In this document: in pieces, positions 288 through 45,841 of the stretch | Layout: each line of letters opens with the position of its first letter | How positions within the stretch are numbered: position 1 is the stretch's first letter | Source: Nitrosomonadales bacterium | GTDB lineage: Bacteria; Pseudomonadota; Gammaproteobacteria; Burkholderiales; Gallionellaceae | Reading direction: 5' to 3' | NCBI GenBank assembly: GCA_016177795.1 | Contig: JACOUM010000010.1 | Location: 1 to 64,000 of the forward strand | Length of the DNA: 64,000 bases | Notes under the pieces: generated by a model | What the model saw: only the letters and a program-made list of their open reading frames with translations | What the model was told of the DNA's origin: nothing | Databases searched by the model: none | Position numbers and translations under genes: made by a program

Positions 288-1268
288 ATGTTGAAGCGGT
301 TTACGGCTGATTGGGCAGTGCCGATTGCGGATTTGATTCTGGCGCCATTGGTGTTCGTTGCGGCGGTATTGATGAAAATCGTGCGGCGCTTCGGTATCTG
401 GCGCATGCCGCTCAGCAAGGCCATTTTCAATCGCGTGGGAATTTACCCGATTCGCGATCATTATTACGAGCCGATGTACAACTACAGGAAGTATTTGCGG
501 CATTCGCTGCGCGACGAACGCAGTTTGCCGGGCATCGACCTCAATGAGGCCGGGCAACTGGGTTGGCTTGAGCAGTTCGATTATGCCGCCGAACTTGCGC
601 GCATCCCGCTTGATCCGGCTGCCGGCAGATTGTTCCATTACAGGAACCCGAATTTTGCGGAAGGCGATGCGGAGTGCCTGTACAGCCTGATTCGCCTGAA
701 AAAACCCCAGCGCATCATCGAGATCGGCAGCGGATTTTCCACCATGATGGCGCGCGAAGCCGTGGAGCAGAACCGGCGTGAGGATGCCGCCTACAGTTGC
801 CGGCACATCTGCATCGAGCCCTATGAAATGCAATGGCTGGATGCCGTGAATGGTATCGAGGTGATGCGCAGGAAAGTCGAGGAGATGGACACCTCGTTGT
901 TCCGGCAGCTTGAGGCAGACGATATTCTGTTCATCGATTCCTCGCACGTGATACGCCCGCAGAGCGATGTGCTGGCGGAATATCTGGAGATATTGCCGAT
1001 TCTCAGCCCGGGGGTACTGGTTCACATTCACGATATCTTTACGCCATACGATTACCTCGACCATTGGCTGATTGATGAAGTTAAACTCTGGAATGAACAG
1101 TACTTGCTGGAAGCCTTTCTGTCATGCAACCCGCAGTTCGAAATCATCCTTGCCTTGAACTTTCTGAGCCACAGGCATCCGGACAAACTGGCGGAGAAAT
1201 TCCCGATGTTGCGGGGGCAGGCGGAGCAGGCCGAGCCGAGGTCTTTCTGGATCCGGAAAGCCGCCTGA
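288..1268 (+). CDS. Class I SAM-dependent methyltransferase-like protein
   Basis: ORF with RIIEIGSGFSTMMAREAVE SAM-binding-like motif. Confidence 0.65.
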   Translation: MLKRFTADWAVPIADLILAPLVFVAAVLMKIVRRFGIWRMPLSKAIFNRVGIYPIRDHYYEPMYNYRKYLRHSLRDERSLPGIDLNEAGQLGWLEQFDYAAELARIPLDPAAGRLFHYRNPNFAEGDAECLYSLIRLKKPQRIIEIGSGFSTMMAREAVEQNRREDAAYSCRHICIEPYEMQWLDAVNGIEVMRRKVEEMDTSLFRQLEADDILFIDSSHVIRPQSDVLAEYLEILPILSPGVLVHIHDIFTPYDYLDHWLIDEVKLWNEQYLLEAFLSCNPQFEIILALNFLSHRHPDKLAEKFPMLRGQAEQAEPRSFWIRKAA

Positions 1269-6052: not shown

Positions 6053-6972
6053 CCCACTCCCCACTCCCCACTTCCCACTCTCCACTTCCCAGAAAAGGAC
6101 TCATTCTCGCCGGCGGCACCGGCACGCGCCTGCACCCGGTCACGCTGGCGGTCTCCAAGCAGCTGCTGCCGGTCTACGACAAGCCGATGATCTATTACCC
6201 GCTGACCACCCTGATGCTGGCGGGGATACGCGATGTACTGATCATCTCGACACCGCATGACACCCCACATTTCAGGCAATTGCTGGGCGACGGCAGTGCA
6301 TGGGGGATGAATTTGCAATATGCGGTGCAGCCTTCGCCGGACGGCTTGGCGCAGGCTTTCATCATCGGGCGCGAGTTTATCGGCAACCACCCTTCAGCGC
6401 TGGTATTGGGCGACAATATTTTTTACGGACATTCTTTGCATCGGCAACTGGAAAACGCGACGCAGCTTGCTGAAGGCGCTTCGGTATTTGCCTACCATGT
6501 GCGCGACCCGGAGCGCTACGGGGTGGTGGAGTTTGATGCAAGCGGACGAGCCATCTCGCTGGAGGAAAAACCATTGCAGCCGAAATCCAGCTACGCCGTT
6601 ACCGGGCTGTACTTTTACGATAATGCAGTGGTGGACATTGCCGCTGGCCTCAAACCCTCTGCGCGCGGTGAGCTGGAAATCACCGATGTGAACCGCATTT
6701 ATCTCGGGAAGAACAGGTTGTCCGTCGAAATGATGGGGCGCGGCTATGCGTGGCTGGATACCGGCACCCATGAATCGCTGCTCGAAGCCAGCCAGTTCAT
6801 CCAGACCATCGAGCACCGCCAGGGGCTGAAGATCGCCTGCCCGGAAGAAATCGCCTATCGCAAGGGGTTCATTGATGCCGCACAGCTGGAACGGCTCGCC
6901 GCGCCTTTGCTGAAAAGCGGCTACGGCAATTACCTGATGCAGGTGCTCAGGGAAAAGGGGATGCCAGAGTGA
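6049..6972 (+). CDS. rfbA: Glucose-1-phosphate thymidylyltransferase
   Basis: [38 protein letters not shown]; first ~17 residues encoded by repeat. Confidence 0.92.
6051..6092 (-). repeat. Heptamer repeat arm in opposite orientation
   Basis: cccactccccactccccacttcccactctccacttccc. Confidence 0.85.
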
Positions 6973-30551: not shown

Positions 30552-30791
30552 ATGACCCAAAACTGTTCAAACAATCTGGCAAATCAACTGATTTCAAAGT
30601 ACGGCCCGACCATCGGTAGCCATGATCTCTACTCAGCCTTGGGGTTCAAAACTTATGCGGCTTTCCATCGAAGCCAGCAGCGAAGAGAGTTAGGCGTTCA
30701 TGTGTTTAAACTGCCTAGCCGGCGCGGCTGGTTTGCACTAACTTTTGACATTGCAACGTGGCTTGAAAAACAATCAAGTAATCAAAGATAA
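30552..30791 (+). CDS. Small hypothetical, possibly DNA-binding, protein
   Basis: 79-aa ORF with SKYGPTIGSHDLYSALGFKTYAAFHRSQQRRELGVHVF. Confidence 0.45.
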   Translation: MTQNCSNNLANQLISKYGPTIGSHDLYSALGFKTYAAFHRSQQRRELGVHVFKLPSRRGWFALTFDIATWLEKQSSNQR

Positions 30792-30948
30792 CAAAGTGGA
30801 AATCGATGTAATGAAGGAAGGGACGCATCTAATAGAATTCGTCTCCTGAATTAGGTAGTTATGCCCTTTGCTAGGCGGGCAAAGTCCAATCAACGAACAG
30901 GGAGATGACAATAGAAAAACAAATAAACCACAAATAAAAAACGCACGG

Positions 30949-31110
30949 TTTGCAGACCGCGCGCTTTTACATTCATAAATCTGGGGAAAACCAGACTTGA
31001 CTAATTGCAGGTCAAAGTCTACGAGCATATTCACTGCTCGTCAATCCCCCATTTTTAATTTTTGAAAGCCGCTTTTCGCGGCGCGGGATTCATCGTCCCT
31101 AAAAATGGAG
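30949..31110 (+). promoter_or_regulatory. Candidate structured RNA leader upstream of tnsA
   Basis: Consecutive hairpins (TCTGG..CCAGA; AGACTTGAC..GTCAAAGTCT; CGAGCA..TGCTCG) then CCATTTTTA/TAAAAATGG enclosing GCCGC..GCGGC and GGGA..TCCC; last stem overlaps the tnsA RBS region. Confidence 0.5.
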
Positions 31111-31117
31111 ATTTCAA

Positions 31118-32014
31118 ATGCGCACAACAAAAAGATTTACGCCGTCAGTCCTTACTCATTTCCTCAAAATTGGCCGAGGAACTGGTACTTTCGAAAACTA
31201 CATCCCTTGGCATCGGGTAGGGCGCAGCGACCCTTCCAGCATCGGTCGTTCGCATTTACAGATGTGGCGCGGAAGACAAAGGGAGCTGTTAAGCGACGGG
31301 GAGTGGGTTGGCCTATTTTTTGCGGTCTCAATGAGAAATCTAATTGATCTTACAGAGCAATTCCCTTTGTCCCTCGAAGGCGGCCAGCACGAAATGTCAG
31401 CATATCGCGTTGGCACGCCTCCATCCCGCCATCCTGGAACCTTAGACATTGCAAAGAGCCTTGGTGTTAAACATCCAAAAACCAATGAAAAGGGTTTGTC
31501 AGCGGACTGGGTGATGACAACTGACTTTCTTCTGGCAATTCAGCAACCAAGCAAGCAATTAGAGCTGGTTGCTGTTGCATTCAAACCAAGTGCAGATTTG
31601 AAAAACCGGCGGACAAAAGAACTTTTAAACATTGAGCGTGAATATTGGCTGGCCAGAGGCGTAACCTGGTTGCTCATTACTCCTGAGATATTTGATCAAC
31701 GCGTTGCCCTCCGTCTTAAAGACACGATGCCTTGGGCATTAAGTGATGCCAGTTCAGAAAGCGACCTAATCATTGCCGCCACCTTGGCCAAAGCACTTCA
31801 GGGACATTCACTGACACATGTTCTGGAGCAGCTTACTGCAAAGCTTGGCGACAATAACTACGCCCAACGTACTTTTTGGCAGGCTGTCTGGTGTGGAAAC
31901 ATCCCCCTAGATCTGCGACGAGGATGGCGCCCCCACCTTCCAATCTCCTTGCTCTCAGAACACGACTTCATGTCATTAAATCCAATTGCAAACCGGAGAT
32001 CATCATGGATCTGA
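31118..32014 (+). CDS. tnsA: TnsA-like transposon endonuclease
   Basis: RGTGTFENYIPWHRV..GRSH, LTEQFPL, STDFLL-like TTDFLLAI, VAVAFKPSADLKNRRTKELLNIEREYW, matching the Tn7 TnsA layout. Confidence 0.9.
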   Translation: MRTTKRFTPSVLTHFLKIGRGTGTFENYIPWHRVGRSDPSSIGRSHLQMWRGRQRELLSDGEWVGLFFAVSMRNLIDLTEQFPLSLEGGQHEMSAYRVGTPPSRHPGTLDIAKSLGVKHPKTNEKGLSADWVMTTDFLLAIQQPSKQLELVAVAFKPSADLKNRRTKELLNIEREYWLARGVTWLLITPEIFDQRVALRLKDTMPWALSDASSESDLIIAATLAKALQGHSLTHVLEQLTAKLGDNNYAQRTFWQAVWCGNIPLDLRRGWRPHLPISLLSEHDFMSLNPIANRRSSWI

Positions 32015-34248
32015 TGCATAACTCAGTTTTCAGGATATTGGCTGGCGACAATGCAGGTCTTTACCGTGTTGTGCTGGACGAAATTCAGCGTGGCTACACG
32101 ATTATTGTGCGACTGGATCCTGTGCTTACGGAAAATCAGCCGCGCCGTGGTCGCAAAAAACTCGAGACAATAAAAAATAAGCGCAGAAAAGCTCCCGCCT
32201 CCTTAGTCGGAAAATTAATTTTTGTAGATCGCTCCGAGCTTCAGGCGCTGGTTGACCAAAAACAGCTTTTATATATTCAGGTTGAAACCGAGTTGTTTCA
32301 GCTGTCTCCAAGCGATGAGCCTCAGTTTAAGAGGCGGTGCGAGATCATGAAAGGATTCCTTGATTTCGATAACGTGCGGGAAAAAATCATAATCGACCAA
32401 AACATCAGCGGCCTCATCGATGAAGCCATTACTAACACGGAAGTTAGCAAGCCCCTTGTTTACAAACTATTTTCGTTGCTTTGCCGTTTTGGATTTCACG
32501 AGTCCAGCCTCCGCCCACGTCGCGATCGATGTGGTGCGAAAGGCATCGCTCGTCCCTGCGATCCGTCCGTCCGCCAAAAGCCAGGAGCCAAGACCACCAA
32601 GCAGCGGGTCGCCAGAGCCTACGGACAAATTATTCCGCCTCAACAGCCTGGTATGAACACCGAATGGCGGAACCTGATCATGACTGCCGATAAACAAATC
32701 CCTACGCCCAAGCCCGCTATGCCGGCGCGAACCAAGCTCATTCTGGCCAGTGCCTTCGTCAAAAAATACCGGCAGGATGGCAACAAGCTAGTTGCCGTTG
32801 ATCCCACCCTTGGAGAATATCCGAATAACCGGCAAATTCGTCGTGTCCTTGAGACTGAAGTCTCAAAGCTTCAACAATTACTCGACAAAACAACAAAAGG
32901 CCACTTCGCCCGTAGCATAAGAGGACTCATGGGAAAAAACTGGCAGGGCGTTGCCGGCCCCGGCCACACCTGGGCGATAGATTCCACAATCGGAGATATT
33001 TACCTCCGTTCATCAGTAAACCGTGCCTGGATAATCGGTCGCCCAATTGTTTATATCATTGTCGATGTATGGTCGACAGCTGTTGTTGGATTCTACGTGT
33101 GCCTGACAGGCCCAAGCTGGGACACAGCAAAGGTCAGTTTGTTTTGCTCTGCGGCACCGCCCGAATTTCTCGGAGAACTCTGGGGGTATCAGCCAATGAT
33201 GTCACTCAGCCCTTCTCCAACGATGTGCGCCGCGCTTATGTGTGATCGTGGCGAATACTTGTCCAAGGCAGCTAGCCTCACAGGAGCAAAGTTAATTCCT
33301 TGCCTCAGCTATGCCCCGCCATATCGCCCTGATCTTAAAGGCTTGGTCGAGGTCTTACACCGCATAGAAAAGGATCGTCAATTTTTGTTTGTGCCGGGCG
33401 CAATCGACATGCGACGTCAGGAGTTTGAACTACGGAAGTTCAATCCCAATGAAGCTGTACTCACCGTTCGCGAGTACACCCAATATCTGTATACAATTTT
33501 CACAGAATACAACCTAACCGCAGATCGCACTCACAGGGTTGACGCTCACATGAAAGCAATCGGCGTTTTCCCAAGTCCCGCTGGCTTATGGCGTTGGGGG
33601 CATGAGATGGGAATTGGTGTGCGTCGTGACATACCTTTGTCCGAACTGATCACCAACTTACTTCCCTCTGAACAGGCTAGGGTGACGCGCAACGGAGTTA
33701 TGTTTGCAGGCAAACAATATGGCTCAGACGTTGTAGACGAACAGCAGTGGACTGCATATGCCAGAAACTTTGGTGGATGGGATATTGGCGCTAATCACTT
33801 CCCAGGATCTGTTTCTAAAATATGGGTACCCAACCCAACCGCAAATGGCCTGCTAGATCTCAATATTTCAGACTATTCAACCGCATCGCCTGAGTTGACC
33901 TTTGACGAAGTCGCCGATGCTTTTATGTTCGGCAAAATCAATAATGCCGAGGTTCAGCACGCCAAAACACTCCACGCCTTACAGTCGCTACGCAAAGTGC
34001 AGGAAATCGTTGCAAGCGCGAAAATTTTGACGGACGAGGCGCTTGCTCGCTACAGCGGTGCCAAGCCGAGCATGACTGAAACCCGCGCCTTTGAAACGTC
34101 CACCGCCCAGTCCACGCCTACGTCGGCAACTGCGTCTGGGGCAGATTCATCATCCAGCTGCAACAACGATGATGCCTATTTCATGCATATGGAGATGATG
34201 AGTTCGGTTTTGGCTGCCGTCAACGGCATGGAGAACTCAAATGTCTGA
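32005..34248 (+). CDS. tnsB: TnsB-like DDE transposase
   Basis: HTWAIDSTIGDIYL, MCDRGEYLS, APPYRPDLKGLVEVLHRIEK (DDE arrangement); follows tnsA. Confidence 0.92.
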   Translation: MDLMHNSVFRILAGDNAGLYRVVLDEIQRGYTIIVRLDPVLTENQPRRGRKKLETIKNKRRKAPASLVGKLIFVDRSELQALVDQKQLLYIQVETELFQLSPSDEPQFKRRCEIMKGFLDFDNVREKIIIDQNISGLIDEAITNTEVSKPLVYKLFSLLCRFGFHESSLRPRRDRCGAKGIARPCDPSVRQKPGAKTTKQRVARAYGQIIPPQQPGMNTEWRNLIMTADKQIPTPKPAMPARTKLILASAFVKKYRQDGNKLVAVDPTLGEYPNNRQIRRVLETEVSKLQQLLDKTTKGHFARSIRGLMGKNWQGVAGPGHTWAIDSTIGDIYLRSSVNRAWIIGRPIVYIIVDVWSTAVVGFYVCLTGPSWDTAKVSLFCSAAPPEFLGELWGYQPMMSLSPSPTMCAALMCDRGEYLSKAASLTGAKLIPCLSYAPPYRPDLKGLVEVLHRIEKDRQFLFVPGAIDMRRQEFELRKFNPNEAVLTVREYTQYLYTIFTEYNLTADRTHRVDAHMKAIGVFPSPAGLWRWGHEMGIGVRRDIPLSELITNLLPSEQARVTRNGVMFAGKQYGSDVVDEQQWTAYARNFGGWDIGANHFPGSVSKIWVPNPTANGLLDLNISDYSTASPELTFDEVADAFMFGKINNAEVQHAKTLHALQSLRKVQEIVASAKILTDEALARYSGAKPSMTETRAFETSTAQSTPTSATASGADSSSSCNNDDAYFMHMEMMSSVLAAVNGMENSNV

Positions 34249-35527
34249 TCCAAATTCATTTGACCCTTATTCCGGCAACATTCTGACTCAAGGCTTGGGC
34301 CCCATTCTGTCTCGGCAGCATGCCTTAACTAGGCTGACGTATTTGCCGCCACTCCCGCACGATATCGGTAATGTGCCGAAGCACATCAGGATGCATCAGC
34401 TAATGATGTTGCGCGATTTTCACATACCCTCCATTGAGGGAGGAAGACTCGTTGAAACCATCGATTTGATGGTTCGACCGGGCTACCGCTACCGCGATCC
34501 AAAATCTGCTCAGACATGGGGATTCATCGGTGCCGAGCCAATGCTTCAAAAAACAACGAGAGCGCCTGCGACAGCAGCTGTTGTCGTTGGTCATTCGGGA
34601 ACCGGAAAGACAGAAGCCATTCTGCGCGGACTCAATTGCTATCCCCAACAGGTCATAACCCACGACACATTCCCGCATCTTGTCGATAAACATCGTCAGG
34701 TTGTCTGGCAGTCTGTTGATGTTCCTGCCAGCGGCCACTCATCAGATTTGGCAGCAAATTTGATGATGACCTGGGATGCAACGATGGGGGAATATTTTCC
34801 TGGCTCCCCTAGGCGGTTTGAGGCGGCCCTTGCAAAGGATCGACGCGTTGGATCGAAGATGCTGGATGAATGGCGGCAGGTAGCAAGCAGTCACTTCCTA
34901 GGACTGCTCCATTTAGATGAGGTACAAAATTTTTTCCGCCTGCAAAGCCTCGAAAAACGTCGGAAACAAGCCAAAGAGGCAGGCGGGATGGAATTGAGTA
35001 TCGTGGAAGATCAGTGTCTCAAATGGATACTGACTCTGACCAATACCTGGCAGATCCCGCTGCTGTTGTCTGGCACACCCGATGGAATTGGAGCATTAAC
35101 AAAGCGCCTGAGTAATATTGAGCGTTTTGTCTCATCCGGTTATCACCAGTTTCCTCTCTTTGAAGATGCGAAGAGCCCCATGTTCTTTGAGGGATTTTTT
35201 AAGCAACTTGCCAATTATCAATTCGTGCAAAAACGTTTGGAGGTGACATCCGAATTGGCCGAGCTGATTATCAAGCTGACAGGAGGGATTCCGCGAATAA
35301 TCATCGCGCTTTGGATTGCCGCACATCGAGTTGCATTTGAGAGAAGAAAGGATGACTTAAGCTTGGATGACTTTAATCGTGCAGCGACAACCTATCTAGC
35401 ACCCATTGGCCCCGCAATTGCGGCCCTGCACAGTAAAGACCCGCAACGTATGGCACGATATGAGGATTTGGTCTCTCGTGATGATGGTTATTGGTCTACA
35501 TTTTGGTCTACAGTAAGTTCGATATGA
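34241..35527 (+). CDS. tnsC: TnsC-like AAA+ transposition regulator
   Basis: Walker A GHSGTGKTEAI, Walker B LLHLDEVQNFF; overlaps tnsB stop. Confidence 0.92.
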   Translation: MSDPNSFDPYSGNILTQGLGPILSRQHALTRLTYLPPLPHDIGNVPKHIRMHQLMMLRDFHIPSIEGGRLVETIDLMVRPGYRYRDPKSAQTWGFIGAEPMLQKTTRAPATAAVVVGHSGTGKTEAILRGLNCYPQQVITHDTFPHLVDKHRQVVWQSVDVPASGHSSDLAANLMMTWDATMGEYFPGSPRRFEAALAKDRRVGSKMLDEWRQVASSHFLGLLHLDEVQNFFRLQSLEKRRKQAKEAGGMELSIVEDQCLKWILTLTNTWQIPLLLSGTPDGIGALTKRLSNIERFVSSGYHQFPLFEDAKSPMFFEGFFKQLANYQFVQKRLEVTSELAELIIKLTGGIPRIIIALWIAAHRVAFERRKDDLSLDDFNRAATTYLAPIGPAIAALHSKDPQRMARYEDLVSRDDGYWSTFWSTVSSI

Positions 35528-35539
35528 TTACCATCAACA

Positions 35540-36943
35540 CTAAGCACGGCATTCTTCCTCGGCTCTTGCACGGAGTTCCTGCGCCCGCAACTGTTCACGG
35601 CGGATTTTCGGGCTGAACTTGGTTGCTACAGGCCCCGTAGCCGAACTTGCTTCGCCCGGCGTAAGTTGCCGAGCTCGGCGGACACCCGTACCTCGCCCGC
35701 TTGGCCGTTGCATTGCTTGAAGTGCACGTGTCAAATCACAGCTGGCATTGCGTATCAAATCTTCCATCGCCCCTATGCTGATGTTCCCCTTTTCGGCACT
35801 GGCTTGTAAGGATTGTTTTTCTACGTAGAACGCAAACACCGCTTTAAATACGCTCTGATTGGCTTTTTGAATCAGATTGGGTAGCCCGATGGTTGCCAGT
35901 TTTAACGCCAGTGTCGGCTTGCTAACCGACAAACTCGATGCGATCGTTGAATAATTTCCACGCTCCTGAATATATGCGTCAAGCAACTCATCACGCGTAA
36001 ATTGAGCCGAAGGCTGGCGGGATATTGATGTGGAAGCTGCTGACGACTGGAGCGCATTCAATGCCATATACACGGATTCATATAGAACCGCAAAGGCTAA
36101 AACATAGGCACTTACAGAAGATGCCGAGGTCTTCAAATACAAAACCCCATCCATTTGGCTCAAATGCATCCCCTCTGGCTTATCCGTAAGTGCGGGCAGC
36201 ACCGTAGCTAACCATTTCCGTCCAAAAGCATTGACGATAGCATCGCTTAATAGAGGCGATTTAACCTTGCCACCGTGTGTCTGAAAACCCTGTGCAGATG
36301 CCTTTTCTTTTAAAGTTACCGACACGTGCTTCACGTCAAAAGGTTTCCGAGTATCCAATAAGTTGGAACAAATCTCGTTGTAACGCTGTATCGATTTATT
36401 GTTAAATGCCTGTTTTACCCATTGCTCATCGACGGATTGACAATGCTGCAACTGCACGGCTGGCGGCAACAGAAAGGCAGACTCATCTTCGGTATATTTT
36501 AGCGGTGTTGCATGCTTCGAACACCAAAGCATCCCTGGTATCTGATGTTCTCGCCGCCAATAGCTCTGACCATGAAACTCCTGATCTTCACGTACACACT
36601 CTGCACAGAAATAAGCCCCTGTTCTGGCCAGCTGCATTCCCGTTGACCATAGCATGGAGCGCTGTTGCTCGCCTCCATGCAACAAATCAGGCTGGTAAGA
36701 CGTAATACCGCGCCGGAATGGAAGGAGCGAATGTTGTCTCACGAATATTGGCACATCGGTGCCGGCTACTTTGCTGAGTAATTCCAAACACGACATTTCA
36801 CGCCTTGATTTATCGGCCACGCCGGCCCATATGCTCATTAACGTCACGGCATCTTTTTTTGTGGCACTCCCGTTTCTGCGCATCACACGCCCCAGATAGC
36901 CTCGATCTAATTCCTCGGGATAGGGTGAAGGTCTGGTCAGCAT
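35540..36943 (-). CDS. tniQ: TniQ-family protein
   Basis: YFCAECVREDQEFHGQSYWRREHQIPGMLWCSKHATPL zinc-finger motif. Confidence 0.88.
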   Translation of the reverse strand: MLTRPSPYPEELDRGYLGRVMRRNGSATKKDAVTLMSIWAGVADKSRREMSCLELLSKVAGTDVPIFVRQHSLLPFRRGITSYQPDLLHGGEQQRSMLWSTGMQLARTGAYFCAECVREDQEFHGQSYWRREHQIPGMLWCSKHATPLKYTEDESAFLLPPAVQLQHCQSVDEQWVKQAFNNKSIQRYNEICSNLLDTRKPFDVKHVSVTLKEKASAQGFQTHGGKVKSPLLSDAIVNAFGRKWLATVLPALTDKPEGMHLSQMDGVLYLKTSASSVSAYVLAFAVLYESVYMALNALQSSAASTSISRQPSAQFTRDELLDAYIQERGNYSTIASSLSVSKPTLALKLATIGLPNLIQKANQSVFKAVFAFYVEKQSLQASAEKGNISIGAMEDLIRNASCDLTRALQAMQRPSGRGTGVRRARQLTPGEASSATGPVATKFSPKIRREQLRAQELRARAEEECRA

Positions 36944-37308
36944 TCATCCACCCCCACCTGTGTTGGTGGCACTGAATCTCGCGGCAAACCCAATACGGCG
37001 AGCGACCTGATCACCGTAGACAGTGCTTTGGCATGCGAGGCAGATCCGTCCCAAGTCATTTTCAAAGCGCCAATCAGCTCTTCATTTGCACGGACGGCAT
37101 CAGCCGTCACGCCACCATCAAGGCGCTCTACATAAAGGCAGACTTCCTCAAAAAGCCTCGATGCTCGAAGCCCCTGCGCTTTCAAAATGCGACTGACCTG
37201 AGGCTGGCTGGCACCAACAGCTTCAGCAATTTCTGCCTGCGTAATGCCGTGTAACCGACATGTATGGGCTGCACGCATAGCGCGTGATTTTAAATCTGGA
37301 CTTATCAT
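36937..37308 (-). CDS. Small helix-turn-helix protein
   Basis: HGITQAEIAEAVGASQPQVSRILKAQG; overlaps tniQ start. Confidence 0.7.
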   Translation of the reverse strand: MISPDLKSRAMRAAHTCRLHGITQAEIAEAVGASQPQVSRILKAQGLRASRLFEEVCLYVERLDGGVTADAVRANEELIGALKMTWDGSASHAKALSTVIRSLAVLGLPRDSVPPTQVGVDEC

Positions 37309-37369: not shown

Positions 37370-38695
37370 TCAGCCCAGCAAGTCTCCCGAATGCGACCTC
37401 GCAGACCGGCGATTCAGTGCTCGCTCAATGACACGCTGTGTCAGCGGCAAGCGATCCAACACCGAAAGCTTGGCTTTTAGCTCTGGGACTTGTTGATAGA
37501 GCTGCCATAACCGGATAGTAGATCGACCATTTATCGAACTGATAGCTAGTGCCGCCGCCTCTACCGCCATACTGAGCGCAATATCGCGCTGATCCCAGGC
37601 AATTCGTGCACCCCCTACCGAGCACTTACCTGCGCCACGGTCAGGCAGATTCTGCTGTAACCATTGCCAGTCGTTGCGGTAGAGCCAGGCATAGGCAGCG
37701 GGATTAAGACTACGGAGCAGCTTGATTCCAATGTTTCCATGTTCTGCCAACAGCATGCACCACCCTTCCCTCGCTTTTGTCCTCTCGCGCTCCTTGCGGC
37801 ATTGTTTCCATGCCTCATGCAAACCGATTTCACTTCTTAGCACCTGAGTAACCGTGACTATTGAGATTCCATAGGTCTGGGCTGCTATGTCCTTATCCAT
37901 GCCGCATCGAAGGCTAGCGATCAGCAATGATCGACGTTCACCCTTCAAAATTTTAGGACGCCGCGATACTTCGATATCACAGTTTGCAGCCCAAACCATG
38001 ATGGTTGCTGTATCAACCCCCAGCTGCTGTGCAGCGACACGTGCGGACTTACCCTCAGTTTTCATTAACTGGATCAGCTTGGTATTAATCGCATCAAATT
38101 TATCTTCTTCATGTGTGCTAACGACATCGGCCCTTGAATCATCAACCGACGGCACTAGGCCTCGAGGCAAAGCACGATACAAACGAATGAATGAACCCGC
38201 ATCGCCAAAGAGCCAGTCGATTATTAATATGTGCCGAAGGGGATGCGTTCCGCTACACATAGGCCGCAACAGTCGACCAATTTGCGCCTTTGATTCTTCA
38301 ATTGTTGAGGGAAGTGCGACAAGCTCAGGAATAAAACGAAGCAGCCGTGCATATTCCAGAAAGTTGGCTGCGATGATTGAGAGACGAAGACTTCCGCCCT
38401 CCGTCACCCATCCTCGTTGCGTTAATTCCGCACGGTAGGCGCGATACAAATAGTCGGGGTCAAGCTCAACGGGATTTGTTCCAGCAACCAAACCAATTGT
38501 AGTTCGAGCCAGAGAGGACAAGTTTGTCACCGTGACCTCTGTCAGACGGCTAATTTCCGGCGGTAATTCACGCAGCATGCCAATGCCAGGGAGATGCCAC
38601 AAGAAACGATCGACTCCCGTAGACTTGAGCAAAGATTCGCGTAAAGGAATGCCGTGCGTATTGCACCACCATACTGGTGCGTGTCTTTGTTCGAC
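37370..38695 (-). pseudogene. TnsD-like protein, 5'-truncated (C-terminal part retained)
   Basis: In-frame reading begins inside a TniQ-type zinc-finger remnant (RHAPVWWCNTHGIPLRES) then continues to NDWQWLQQNLP..RIAWDQRDIALSMAVEAAAL TnsD-like C-terminus; upstream in-frame TAG. Confidence 0.7.
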
Positions 38696-40074
38696 TGACT
38701 ATTTATATTCCACCTGGCTTTCCCGCGCTGGAAACCGAAGCAAGAAAATGTTGCTTAGATGCCTATTTGCGATGTGAGCCACAATTTGTTACTGATTTAA
38801 CTTCCTCCCTGCAACAGGCTGATGCCATCCTAAATGTGGGCTTCAGTGTGAGCTCTTCACATCCATGGACTGCTATTTCTTCAAATGGATGGATCGCACG
38901 AGTTTCGTCTGGCTCTATACCGCTACCTACAGAGATGGGGCAGCCCAATCCTATTGCTGCTTTATTTGCTGCCTCATTAGGAGTTACTGAGGTGTTTAAA
39001 CGCATATACGGTGTGCCCGCAAGCGTAGCTCCATTGCTGGACAAAGCCGAATTGTCCTTATTCGAAAACTCCACTGAGTTCGATTCTGCAGGCCCCTTGC
39101 TTCCGGACAACATCACTTTGCCGGACACGTTGCTCGTTGGGGGTGGCGCAATTGGCAATGGCATTGCACTTTTGATGACACAGTTACCAGTTGTGGGGCG
39201 TGTGCACATCGTAGACAAACAGAGTTACCAGGATGAGAACCATGGCACTTCCATATTGCTGGAAAAAAGTGATTGGATAGGGAATCCGAAGGCGGAACAA
39301 TTGGCCAAATGGATTACCCAAAACAGTACGCTGCATGCAACTGGAGACAAGGCATTTATCAGTGATGCACTGGGCTCAGAAGCAGTGAAATCTATGGCTA
39401 TAGATTTGGTCTTGAACGGCTTGGATAATGTTCAAGCTCGGCACGATTCGCAACTTGCATGGCCTTCAATAATAGTAGACGGCGGAATAAATGAAACCGG
39501 GGCTGCAGTCATCCAGCACAGATTGGACAATCAAGGATTAGCATGCCTAATTTGCGCCTTCAAATTGCCGATGCATGATATTCGCGAAAATCAACGTCAA
39601 CTAACTGGCTTAAATTCGTCTGTATTGTCTGACCAAGGGCGATTTTTAACCGAACAAGACATCATTGACGCCGATCCAGATAAGCAAACATGGCTAAGAG
39701 AAATGCTCAAGGAGAAACGTACAATTTGCTCCGTAGTCTCCGAAGCAGGTCTGCGCCGATTGGGAGTAAAAGCTGAAGATGGCTTTAGGCCGTCTGTACC
39801 TTTTGTTGCCACTGCCGCCGCCGCTATGGTCATTGCTGAAGCCCTTAAGGCATTTCTATACCCTGGCCGCCGCTACTCACAACGTTTCACAATTGGCAAC
39901 TTGTTTTTAGGCCCGCAGTCTTTGGCCAATTCAAGTAGACACGCAGAGCCGTCCTGCTCATGTGTCAGACATCGTACCCTAATCCACTCGTTACTTCAGC
40001 GGCGCAAGCATAAGTCCATCTCGCAGACTAACGCATCCTTCGGGCACACTACAGAAGTTCGCGGTCGCGCGTGA
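38677..40074 (+). CDS. ThiF/E1-like adenylyltransferase, probably 5'-truncated
   Basis: LLVGGGAIGNGIALLMTQLPVVGRVHIVDKQSYQDENHGTSILLEKSDWIGNPKAEQLAKWI; GTG start. Confidence 0.7.
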   Translation: MRVFVRLTIYIPPGFPALETEARKCCLDAYLRCEPQFVTDLTSSLQQADAILNVGFSVSSSHPWTAISSNGWIARVSSGSIPLPTEMGQPNPIAALFAASLGVTEVFKRIYGVPASVAPLLDKAELSLFENSTEFDSAGPLLPDNITLPDTLLVGGGAIGNGIALLMTQLPVVGRVHIVDKQSYQDENHGTSILLEKSDWIGNPKAEQLAKWITQNSTLHATGDKAFISDALGSEAVKSMAIDLVLNGLDNVQARHDSQLAWPSIIVDGGINETGAAVIQHRLDNQGLACLICAFKLPMHDIRENQRQLTGLNSSVLSDQGRFLTEQDIIDADPDKQTWLREMLKEKRTICSVVSEAGLRRLGVKAEDGFRPSVPFVATAAAAMVIAEALKAFLYPGRRYSQRFTIGNLFLGPQSLANSSRHAEPSCSCVRHRTLIHSLLQRRKHKSISQTNASFGHTTEVRGRA

Positions 40075-40168: not shown

Positions 40169-41065
40169 CTACAGAACGTTCTTGTAGGATTGTTCAATGA
40201 TCCCCAGCACGTAATCCAGCTCATCCATGGAACCGAGATAGATACGGCGATCCATGGTCCAGTTATAACCCTCGGGAATTTTTTCGACCTTGCCATTGGG
40301 GTCCTCGTAATCGATAGGCCTCAGATGAATTTTGATCTGATTCTTCCCGATATGGACTTCGGCAAAATTTCCCGAGGCCCGGAAAGCCACGTAAAACTGC
40401 GTGGCTTTCTCTTCGATATTCTCATCGAGTGCCAGCACTCGTTCGCGCAACGCATCAAACAGCTGCTGAACCGCTTCCGTTCCCTTGGCGCGGAGAATTC
40501 CCACGGAAGACTTCGGTGCCTCAGATACGTCGCTTGCCGGCTTTGCCAGTTCAAGCTTCTCGACCTGATCGCCCACGTTGACCCGCTCCAGCCCGAACAC
40601 ATCTCCTTCGTAGTATCGGTACTTGAACAACTCGATACGCAGCGGCACGACTTCCACCGTATCGATGTCGAACTTGCTGTAGCTTTCCGCGATACAGATT
40701 ACCCGCGGGTTGTTCCAGTCCAACTTGATTTTGTCCGCGGCCTCCCTGCCCAGCTTGTCCTGCACCAGCTTCTCGAAGAAGGCAGGCTTCTGGGTCTTCA
40801 GCCACTTGAGGTAGGAGAGCGCTTGGTTGATAACGTTGTCGTTCCTGTTTCGCTTATATTCGATGATGACCGGCGCACCGTTGGCGTCGATGGCGACTGA
40901 ATCGATTCTGCCGCCTGTGGTAGTGACGTATTCCGAGGCTAGAAAGCGTAGCTCCAGCGCCTCCATCAAGTTGCCCTCTAGCAATGCCTGGAGGTTCTTT
41001 TCTTTGTTCAGCGAAATGATATTCAGTTTCTTCAGCTTTCCGTTCTGCACCTTGAAGATAGGCAT
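40169..41065 (-). CDS. PD-(D/E)XK-type nuclease-like protein (DUF5655-like C-terminus)
   Basis: GGRIDSVAIDANGAPVIIEYKRNRNDNVINQALSYLKWL. Confidence 0.75.
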   Translation of the reverse strand: MPIFKVQNGKLKKLNIISLNKEKNLQALLEGNLMEALELRFLASEYVTTTGGRIDSVAIDANGAPVIIEYKRNRNDNVINQALSYLKWLKTQKPAFFEKLVQDKLGREAADKIKLDWNNPRVICIAESYSKFDIDTVEVVPLRIELFKYRYYEGDVFGLERVNVGDQVEKLELAKPASDVSEAPKSSVGILRAKGTEAVQQLFDALRERVLALDENIEEKATQFYVAFRASGNFAEVHIGKNQIKIHLRPIDYEDPNGKVEKIPEGYNWTMDRRIYLGSMDELDYVLGIIEQSYKNVL

Positions 41066-45400: not shown

Positions 45401-45631
45401 ACCTGATCAGGGTTCCACCCCCTCAGGCTGCACGATGGTTTGTTTTGATCCCGGCACTCATCGGCTGATCCGGGTCCTGTCACGGCTTTCGCCACTCACA
45501 GACCGAGCTGCTTGCGGGTTTTACCCCGGTTCGCACTAACAACCATATCAGCGATTAGTAATTTCTACCACCAAGAATTTCTACAATAACCCTCAGGTAC
45601 TTCTGGCTGGAGCGGTTGCAGGGTTTGGGGT

Positions 45632-45841
45632 TTGGCAGGCGTAAAGCCCTCGACCGCCACCATGAAGAAAGGCGCAAGCGTGGCTCTGGTTGGCTTCGGC
45701 ACCTTCGAGGTGCGCAAGCATGCTGCGCGTACTGGCCGCAACCCGGCAACTGGTGCCGAGATCAAGATCAAGGCTTCCAAGGTCCCGGCATTCAAGGCGG
45801 GTGCCAATCTGAAGGCTGCGGTTAACGGTGGCAAGAAGTAA
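45632..45841 (+). pseudogene. HU-type DNA-binding protein, C-terminal fragment
   Basis: [59 protein letters not shown]; the N-terminal half of HU is absent. Confidence 0.8.

Follow-up and report, generated by a model that had tools for sequence, protein, structure and literature searches.

What does the hairpin-rich leader upstream of tnsA do in the Tn7-like element of this Nitrosomonadales contig? The window, that is, the whole 64,000-nt stretch of DNA that was analyzed, contains a Tn7-like gene set (TnsA, TnsB, and TnsC plus TniQ/TnsD genes). A simple search located no end repeats of the transposon, and the element ends were thus not found. The genes of the element and a weak candidate for the sense promoter of the leader transcript are arranged as follows:

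30745..30774, plus strand: candidate sense promoter of the leader transcript, TTGACA-18-AACAAT
31118..32014, plus strand: tnsA (Pfam PF08722, 1.8e-12; resembles the Tn7 TnsA structure 1f1z, 5e-18)
31876..34248, plus strand: tnsB, an open frame whose true start is probably later (resembles the Tn7 TnsB structure 7pik, 2e-36)
34241..35527, plus strand: tnsC (AAA ATPase)
35540-36943, minus strand: tniQ
36937-37308, minus strand: gene for a small HTH protein
37370-38632, minus strand: tnsD

Adjoining tnsD is a gene for a ThiF-domain protein (38677-40074, plus strand; PADLOC BilD match, 1.1e-24), a possible defense cargo of the transposon. The window also encodes a DUF5655/NucS-like protein (40169-41065, minus strand; match to PADLOC candidate PDC-S18, 1.2e-87) and an Rfam Proteo-phage-1 RNA (RF03044, 50.2 bits; 45426-45508, minus strand) with an HU-like gene nearby at 45632-45841.

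The original prediction described successive leader stems, the last of which covers the ribosome-binding site of tnsA. All of these stems were found in place, together with the GGAG and the ATG that they lead up to. The sense-strand features of the leader, including a long-range pairing that we call helix K, are:

30980-30984/30991-30995, plus strand: SL1 hairpin TCTGG-GGAAAA-CCAGA, with the predicted target loop of the antisense RNA described below
30993-31001/31011-31020, plus strand: stem P2, AGACTTGAC/GTCAAAGTCT
31022-31027/31035-31040, plus strand: hairpin P3, CGAGCA/TGCTCG, in the spacer of the antisense promoter
31049-31057/31100-31108, plus strand: outer stem of P4, CCATTTTTA/TAAAAATGG, enclosing hairpins at 31068-31082 and 31085-31099
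31068-31072/31078-31082, plus strand: inner hairpin of P4, GCCGC/GCGGC
within 31085-31099, plus strand: inner hairpin of P4, GGGA/TCCC
30983-30987, plus strand: 5' strand of helix K, GGGGA, sharing nucleotides with the stem and the loop of SL1
31045-31049, plus strand: 3' strand of helix K, TCCCC, adjoining and overlapping the foot of P4
31107-31110, plus strand: tnsA Shine-Dalgarno sequence GGAG, with the tnsA ATG at 31118

The 3' end of P4 covers the GG of the Shine-Dalgarno sequence. Folding of 30930-31140 gave -60.2 kcal/mol, which is more stable than expected by chance (z -4.24; none of 200 shuffles was equally stable), and the upstream hairpin at 30937-30968 contributes part of this stability. 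The stems are not all compatible with each other. SL1 and P2 cannot both form in full because AGA (30993-30995) is common to both, and helix K is partly exclusive with the SL1 hairpin in the window because both use G30983-30984. Helix K and SL1 may therefore either combine into a pseudoknot or represent alternative states.

The leader is also present in three tnsA relatives, L003, L014, and L005 (80, 71, and 62% identity), and the pairing, whose absence from such elements would have refuted the original prediction, is conserved in them. Over these four leaders, 96.4% of the paired cells can pair, compared to 19-50% for slid controls, and two-sided changes were observed in five pairs, a number reached by one of 500 shuffles. 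Four pairs with two-sided changes fall in P3, and in P4 the L005 leader shows full compensation of one pair, from U-A to G-C. Searching with a covariance model then yielded two more instances in another genus (L022 and L023; 54 and 50 bits), where the leader precedes a Tn7-like operon of another kind that opens with a 50-aa ORF, followed by tnsA. This ORF (L022, 1344-1500, minus strand; L023, 1642-1794, plus strand) follows the leader as its first cistron and overlaps or abuts the tnsA start. On the upstream side, both loci carry a BcepMu gp16-family HTH gene immediately before the leader (TIGR04111; L023, 1152-1397, 2.7e-23; L022, 1746-2021, 1.5e-24); in the window, this place is occupied by a different small ORF (30552-30791).

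One further instance, L027, was found by a second covariance model (34 bits) beside an ArdC-like fragment. There, a core-type leader with the antisense promoter and terminator (1069-1140, minus strand) is joined to the ArdC-like C-terminal fragment, with no tnsA, which suggests a decayed element or a relocated leader. A 25-bit match within a protease gene (L024) was taken as false. In plasmid records, a DNA similarity search did not match the leader.

Within this close family, SL1 varies (UUGG/CCAA in L022 and L023, GCUUGG/CCAAGC in L027), and helix K, of the general form GGGGnA/UnCCCC, pairs perfectly in 7/7 sequences. The 5' strands in the seven leaders are GGGGA, GGGGGA, GGGGUA, GGGGAA, GGGAA, and GGGGGAA, and the 3' strands, located just before P4, are UCCCC, UCCCCC, UACCCC, UUCCCC, UUCCC, and UUCCCCC. 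The variable position is occupied by three pair types, G-C, U-A, or A-U. Both helix K and the Shine-Dalgarno-proximal P4 are based on the close family only, that is, on seven sequences, two of them near-identical, and P4 has mismatches in L022 and L023. When distant leaders were inspected by eye for a common pairing between the loop and the Shine-Dalgarno region, none was established. The conserved pairing at the tnsA Shine-Dalgarno sequence supports translational control, as far as can be judged from sequence comparison.

Invariance within the leader is greatest in two blocks, AGTCTA and CGTCAA, which on the minus strand match the boxes of a sigma-70 promoter. Together with a terminator, they delimit an apparent minus-strand gene for an antisense RNA of ~75 nt:

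31039..31044, minus strand: antisense -35 box TTGACG, the invariant CGTCAA block (GTCAA in alignments A4 and A6)
31016..31021, minus strand: antisense -10 box TAGACT after a 17-bp spacer, the invariant AGTCTA block of alignments A4 and A6
30935..31009, minus strand: predicted antisense RNA, ~75 nt, starting at about 31009 and ending at about 30935, deduced from promoter and terminator
30937..30968, minus strand: intrinsic terminator of the antisense RNA, a hairpin plus T tract; on the plus strand, it corresponds to the first hairpin in the leader

The promoter scan lists 31044-31016 on the minus strand with 9/12 matches, although single matches of this kind are weak alone. The predicted RNA consists of one target hairpin (anti-SL1) and the terminator hairpin, and its whole length is complementary to the leader, over a segment that begins at the stop codon of a tiny upstream ORF (uORF) and includes SL1. 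Its loop letters, UnCC, are those of the leader strand with which it would compete. In 18/22 loci, the antisense version of the terminator hairpin has greater stability than the sense version (mean difference 5.5 kcal/mol; Wilcoxon p 5e-5), a difference that is inflated by the prior selection of these 22 loci on antisense stability. The sense version is weaker because the G-U pairs of the antisense strand become A-C mismatches. A sense-strand terminator was rejected because nearly all relatives have their T tract on the minus strand. Downstream of the -35 box, the sense version was no more stable than the antisense version (p 0.74), and the fold z-scores of this region were mixed.

These boxes bear directly on a reading of the leader as a sense-strand element that responds to a ligand or protein, in which a three-way junction closed by GGGGnA/UnCCCC, with P2 and P3, would free or hide the tnsA Shine-Dalgarno sequence and the minus-strand promoter would be a by-product. 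The conserved pairing, the choice of partners available to UnCCCC, and the minimum-energy fold of the L005 leader, which takes the junction form, are all in keeping with such a switch. However, the letters that never change coincide exactly with the -35 and -10 boxes, which are 17 bp apart, distant elements keep the boxes and the terminator but lose the junction, and the leader has no match in Rfam at gathering or at permissive thresholds. A three-way-junction riboswitch or a ribosomal-protein-like aptamer was thus abandoned as the main reading once the invariant blocks proved to be promoter boxes, and we regard a riboswitch-like leader as quite improbable.

We assessed the recurrence of the putative antisense gene by a combined scan that required a promoter and, 45-100 nt downstream of it, a hairpin of -12 kcal/mol or lower with a T tract. 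Exactly one such pair was found on the minus strand in 11/11 tnsA leaders of this and related elements and none on the plus strand of the same leaders (0/11), compared to 4/660 dinucleotide shuffles and 1/202 tiles of the 64-kb window, the one tile being this locus. Since the scan settings had been chosen with these 11 leaders in view, a fresh set of loci was drawn from TnsA_N (PF08722) matches in 350 genomes of the order, of which 58 had usable upstream sequence; only this 58-locus set is independent of the settings. The promoter-terminator pair was present on the minus strand in 16/58 loci and on the plus strand in 1/58. The -10 box reads GATACT in 10 of the 16 positives, a sequence that was not among the scan criteria. 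Five positives (L066, L067, L096, L100, and L101) have neither GATACT nor the start-stop uORF signature described below; they may be due to chance and were left out of later counts. A relaxed scan added L072 as a positive.

On a tree of 73 TnsA sequences with 23 positives, the label changes six times, compared to 19.8 times in shuffles (0/500 as low). The positives comprise 11/12 rows of the clade that includes the window (support 100/99), 11/13 rows of a distant clade, and L099. In the distant loci, tnsA is followed by open frames that, read by eye, resemble Mu/TnsB-type transposases. The promoter-terminator pair is absent from Pseudomonas plasmid elements, the R721 element, and most other TnsA types, and the exact AUG-UAA/GATACT pattern is absent in 186 genomes of the class and 195 of the phylum, so that the strict form appears to have a restricted distribution, unless the pattern was drawn too narrowly. 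Among viral contigs of IMG/VR, L103 contains a correctly spaced series of elements (ATG-TAAAAAA, a perfect GC-rich hairpin, AGTATC, and GTCAAG; 6222-6337, minus strand), possibly a phage counterpart or a chance match. Two other candidates, L104 and L105, were rejected because they sit in coding sequence unrelated to tnsA; L106 was uninformative, and the IMG/VR pattern matches L028-L031 did not match model R2.

In an alignment of 11 divergent GATACT leaders, the conserved columns fall in the uORF region (a Shine-Dalgarno sequence, AUG-UAA, and an A tract), in the terminator hairpin, and in AGTATC and GTCAAGCC, the complements of the -10 and -35 boxes, respectively. The target hairpin between them varies freely, and in these distant leaders it does not include the -10 box. 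Variation of the target with retention of promoter, terminator, and uORF is the pattern expected of a self-recognizing antisense pair. The same pattern is at odds with the idea that the small RNA acts in trans, as a guide for target choice or on a host mRNA, and is complementary to the leader by location alone. A short, structured RNA beside transposition genes does recall the guide RNAs of CRISPR-associated transposons (CASTs), but TniQ and TnsD are available for protein-guided targeting and no cas effector gene was matched among the ten proteins scanned. Action in trans therefore appears very improbable.

The conserved uORF region corresponds in the window to the following features:

30899..30904, plus strand: Shine-Dalgarno-like AGGGAG of the uORF
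30905..30937, plus strand: uORF MTIEKQINHK*, with its stop codon at the 3' end of the antisense target

The ATG of this frame lies directly beside its Shine-Dalgarno sequence, and translation may in fact begin at the AUA two codons downstream. At the same site, the close family has a strong Shine-Dalgarno sequence and a short frame starting with AUA, AUU, or AUC. A start-stop AUG-UAA/UAG or a frame of two sense codons at most, preceded by a Shine-Dalgarno sequence, was found in 13/22 leaders compared to 1.5% of shuffles, and a Shine-Dalgarno-like block in 19/22 compared to 26%. In many of the positives the uORF lies just 5' of the antisense target; it does not reach P4.

Taken together, the anatomy of the leader, including the antisense gene, is strongly supported by these sequence comparisons, and the mechanism of antisense control moderately so; we infer from them antisense expression, the direction of its effect, and the role of the uORF. 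We consider it likely that the tnsA leader is the target of a transposon-made, cis-encoded antisense RNA that limits tnsA translation in the manner of the IncIα/IncB plasmids. A constitutive-looking sigma-70 promoter on the minus strand within the leader would produce the ~75-nt RNA, which would kiss SL1 and proceed to a duplex. With SL1 in the duplex, its GGGGnA strand would no longer be free to pair with UnCCCC, which lies next to the Shine-Dalgarno-covering P4; alternatively or additionally, the duplex could block the ribosome at the tiny uORF. The outcome would be less TnsA and probably less of the whole tnsABC operon, making transposase output self-limiting and sensitive to the copy number of the element.

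An antisense RNA that is real yet acts mainly on transcription, by interference between convergent polymerases or by attenuation in the leader, would agree with an antisense promoter that opposes the incoming sense polymerase in every positive locus and with an RNA that stops about 110 nt before the tnsA start. We find this unlikely, given an antisense unit of just ~75 nt with its own terminator, conserved close-family pairing that extends to the tnsA Shine-Dalgarno sequence, and the uORF signature at the far end of the antisense target. Antisense control of translation thus remains our preferred reading. The original prediction had suggested a translational switch, a trans-acting RNA, or a transposition regulator. 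Translational control agrees with the conserved Shine-Dalgarno pairing, but a stand-alone switch in the sense leader is improbable because the strongest clade-wide signal is the antisense gene on the other strand. The three-way-junction fold near tnsA looks like the target side of antisense control, and the minus-strand promoter and terminator, the GGGGA/TCCCC long-range pairing, and the tiny uORF are additions to the earlier description.

The closest parallel is provided by the IncIα/IncB plasmids (ColIb-P9 and relatives), with an antisense Inc RNA/RNAI, a leader peptide RepY, and a pseudoknot-activated repZ (PMC8383071, PMC10724649). Translation of IncIα repZ depends on a pseudoknot located upstream of its ribosome-binding site, and this pseudoknot is blocked by the antisense RNA (PMC8383071), which works through kissing (PMC10724649). 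Both systems have a short cis-encoded antisense RNA opposite the 5' part of the leader with its own promoter and terminator (here predicted), a target loop that can also pair with a strand beside the structure covering the Shine-Dalgarno sequence (here in the seven-member close family), and a short upstream reading frame. In contrast to the plasmids, the regulated gene is in a transposase operon (tnsA) and is no replication initiator, and the uORF is minimal, consisting of AUG-UAA in many relatives; it is located 5' of the target and stops short of the Shine-Dalgarno-covering stem. The leader thus resembles this system without being a member of it, the likeness being one of layout and mode.

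In the IncFII plasmid R1, the antisense RNA CopA is thought to act on CopT via the Tap leader peptide upstream of the main gene. Action through an upstream leader peptide is a feature that the tnsA module may share, whereas its tiny ORF is far from the tnsA start in most elements, with no translational coupling. The RNA-OUT of IS10/Tn10 is likewise a transposon-encoded antisense RNA against transposase expression (PMC5006887, PMC6601013), but it covers the transposase translation start, whereas the tnsA antisense RNA would span 31009-30935 with the ATG at 31118; the transposon here is Tn7-like, and the layout of uORF and terminator is different. An RNA-OUT in Vibrio VPaI-7, considered as a Tn7-like antisense RNA, is part of IS10 rather than of the Tn7-like genes. 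In CASTs, regulators such as CvkR likewise exert self-control over Tn7-like transposition genes, but CvkR, unlike the tnsA module, is a protein repressor acting at promoters with no antisense RNA (PMC9938897).

A search of literature covering few subscription papers found no earlier description of an antisense RNA for Tn7 or tnsA, the terms co-occurring incidentally. The antisense module in Tn7-like transposons is thus likely, though not certain, to be previously undescribed. It falls under antisense control of mobile elements, a known principle, of which the Tn7-like case is likely new. The conserved AUG-UAA uORF is unusual in itself. More tentatively, and with less than even confidence, we propose that the two distant Tn7-like clades share an exchangeable module of start-stop uORF, fast-changing antisense hairpin, and structured leader, which would tie the amount of transposase to copy number and divide the transposons into 'compatibility groups', in the way that antisense RNAs do with plasmids, with the ribosome on AUG-UAA as part of the sensor.

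Self-limitation of the transposase is poorly known in Tn7-like elements, including the CRISPR-guided relatives used for genome editing, and a 2023 paper stated that in situ control of CAST systems 'has remained largely unknown' (PMC9938897). If the present reading is correct, an antisense module in several Tn7-like lineages would provide a mechanism of transposase limitation and would predict cross-talk or immunity between related elements. It would also be relevant to engineering, because tns operons cloned without their native leader would lose this control.
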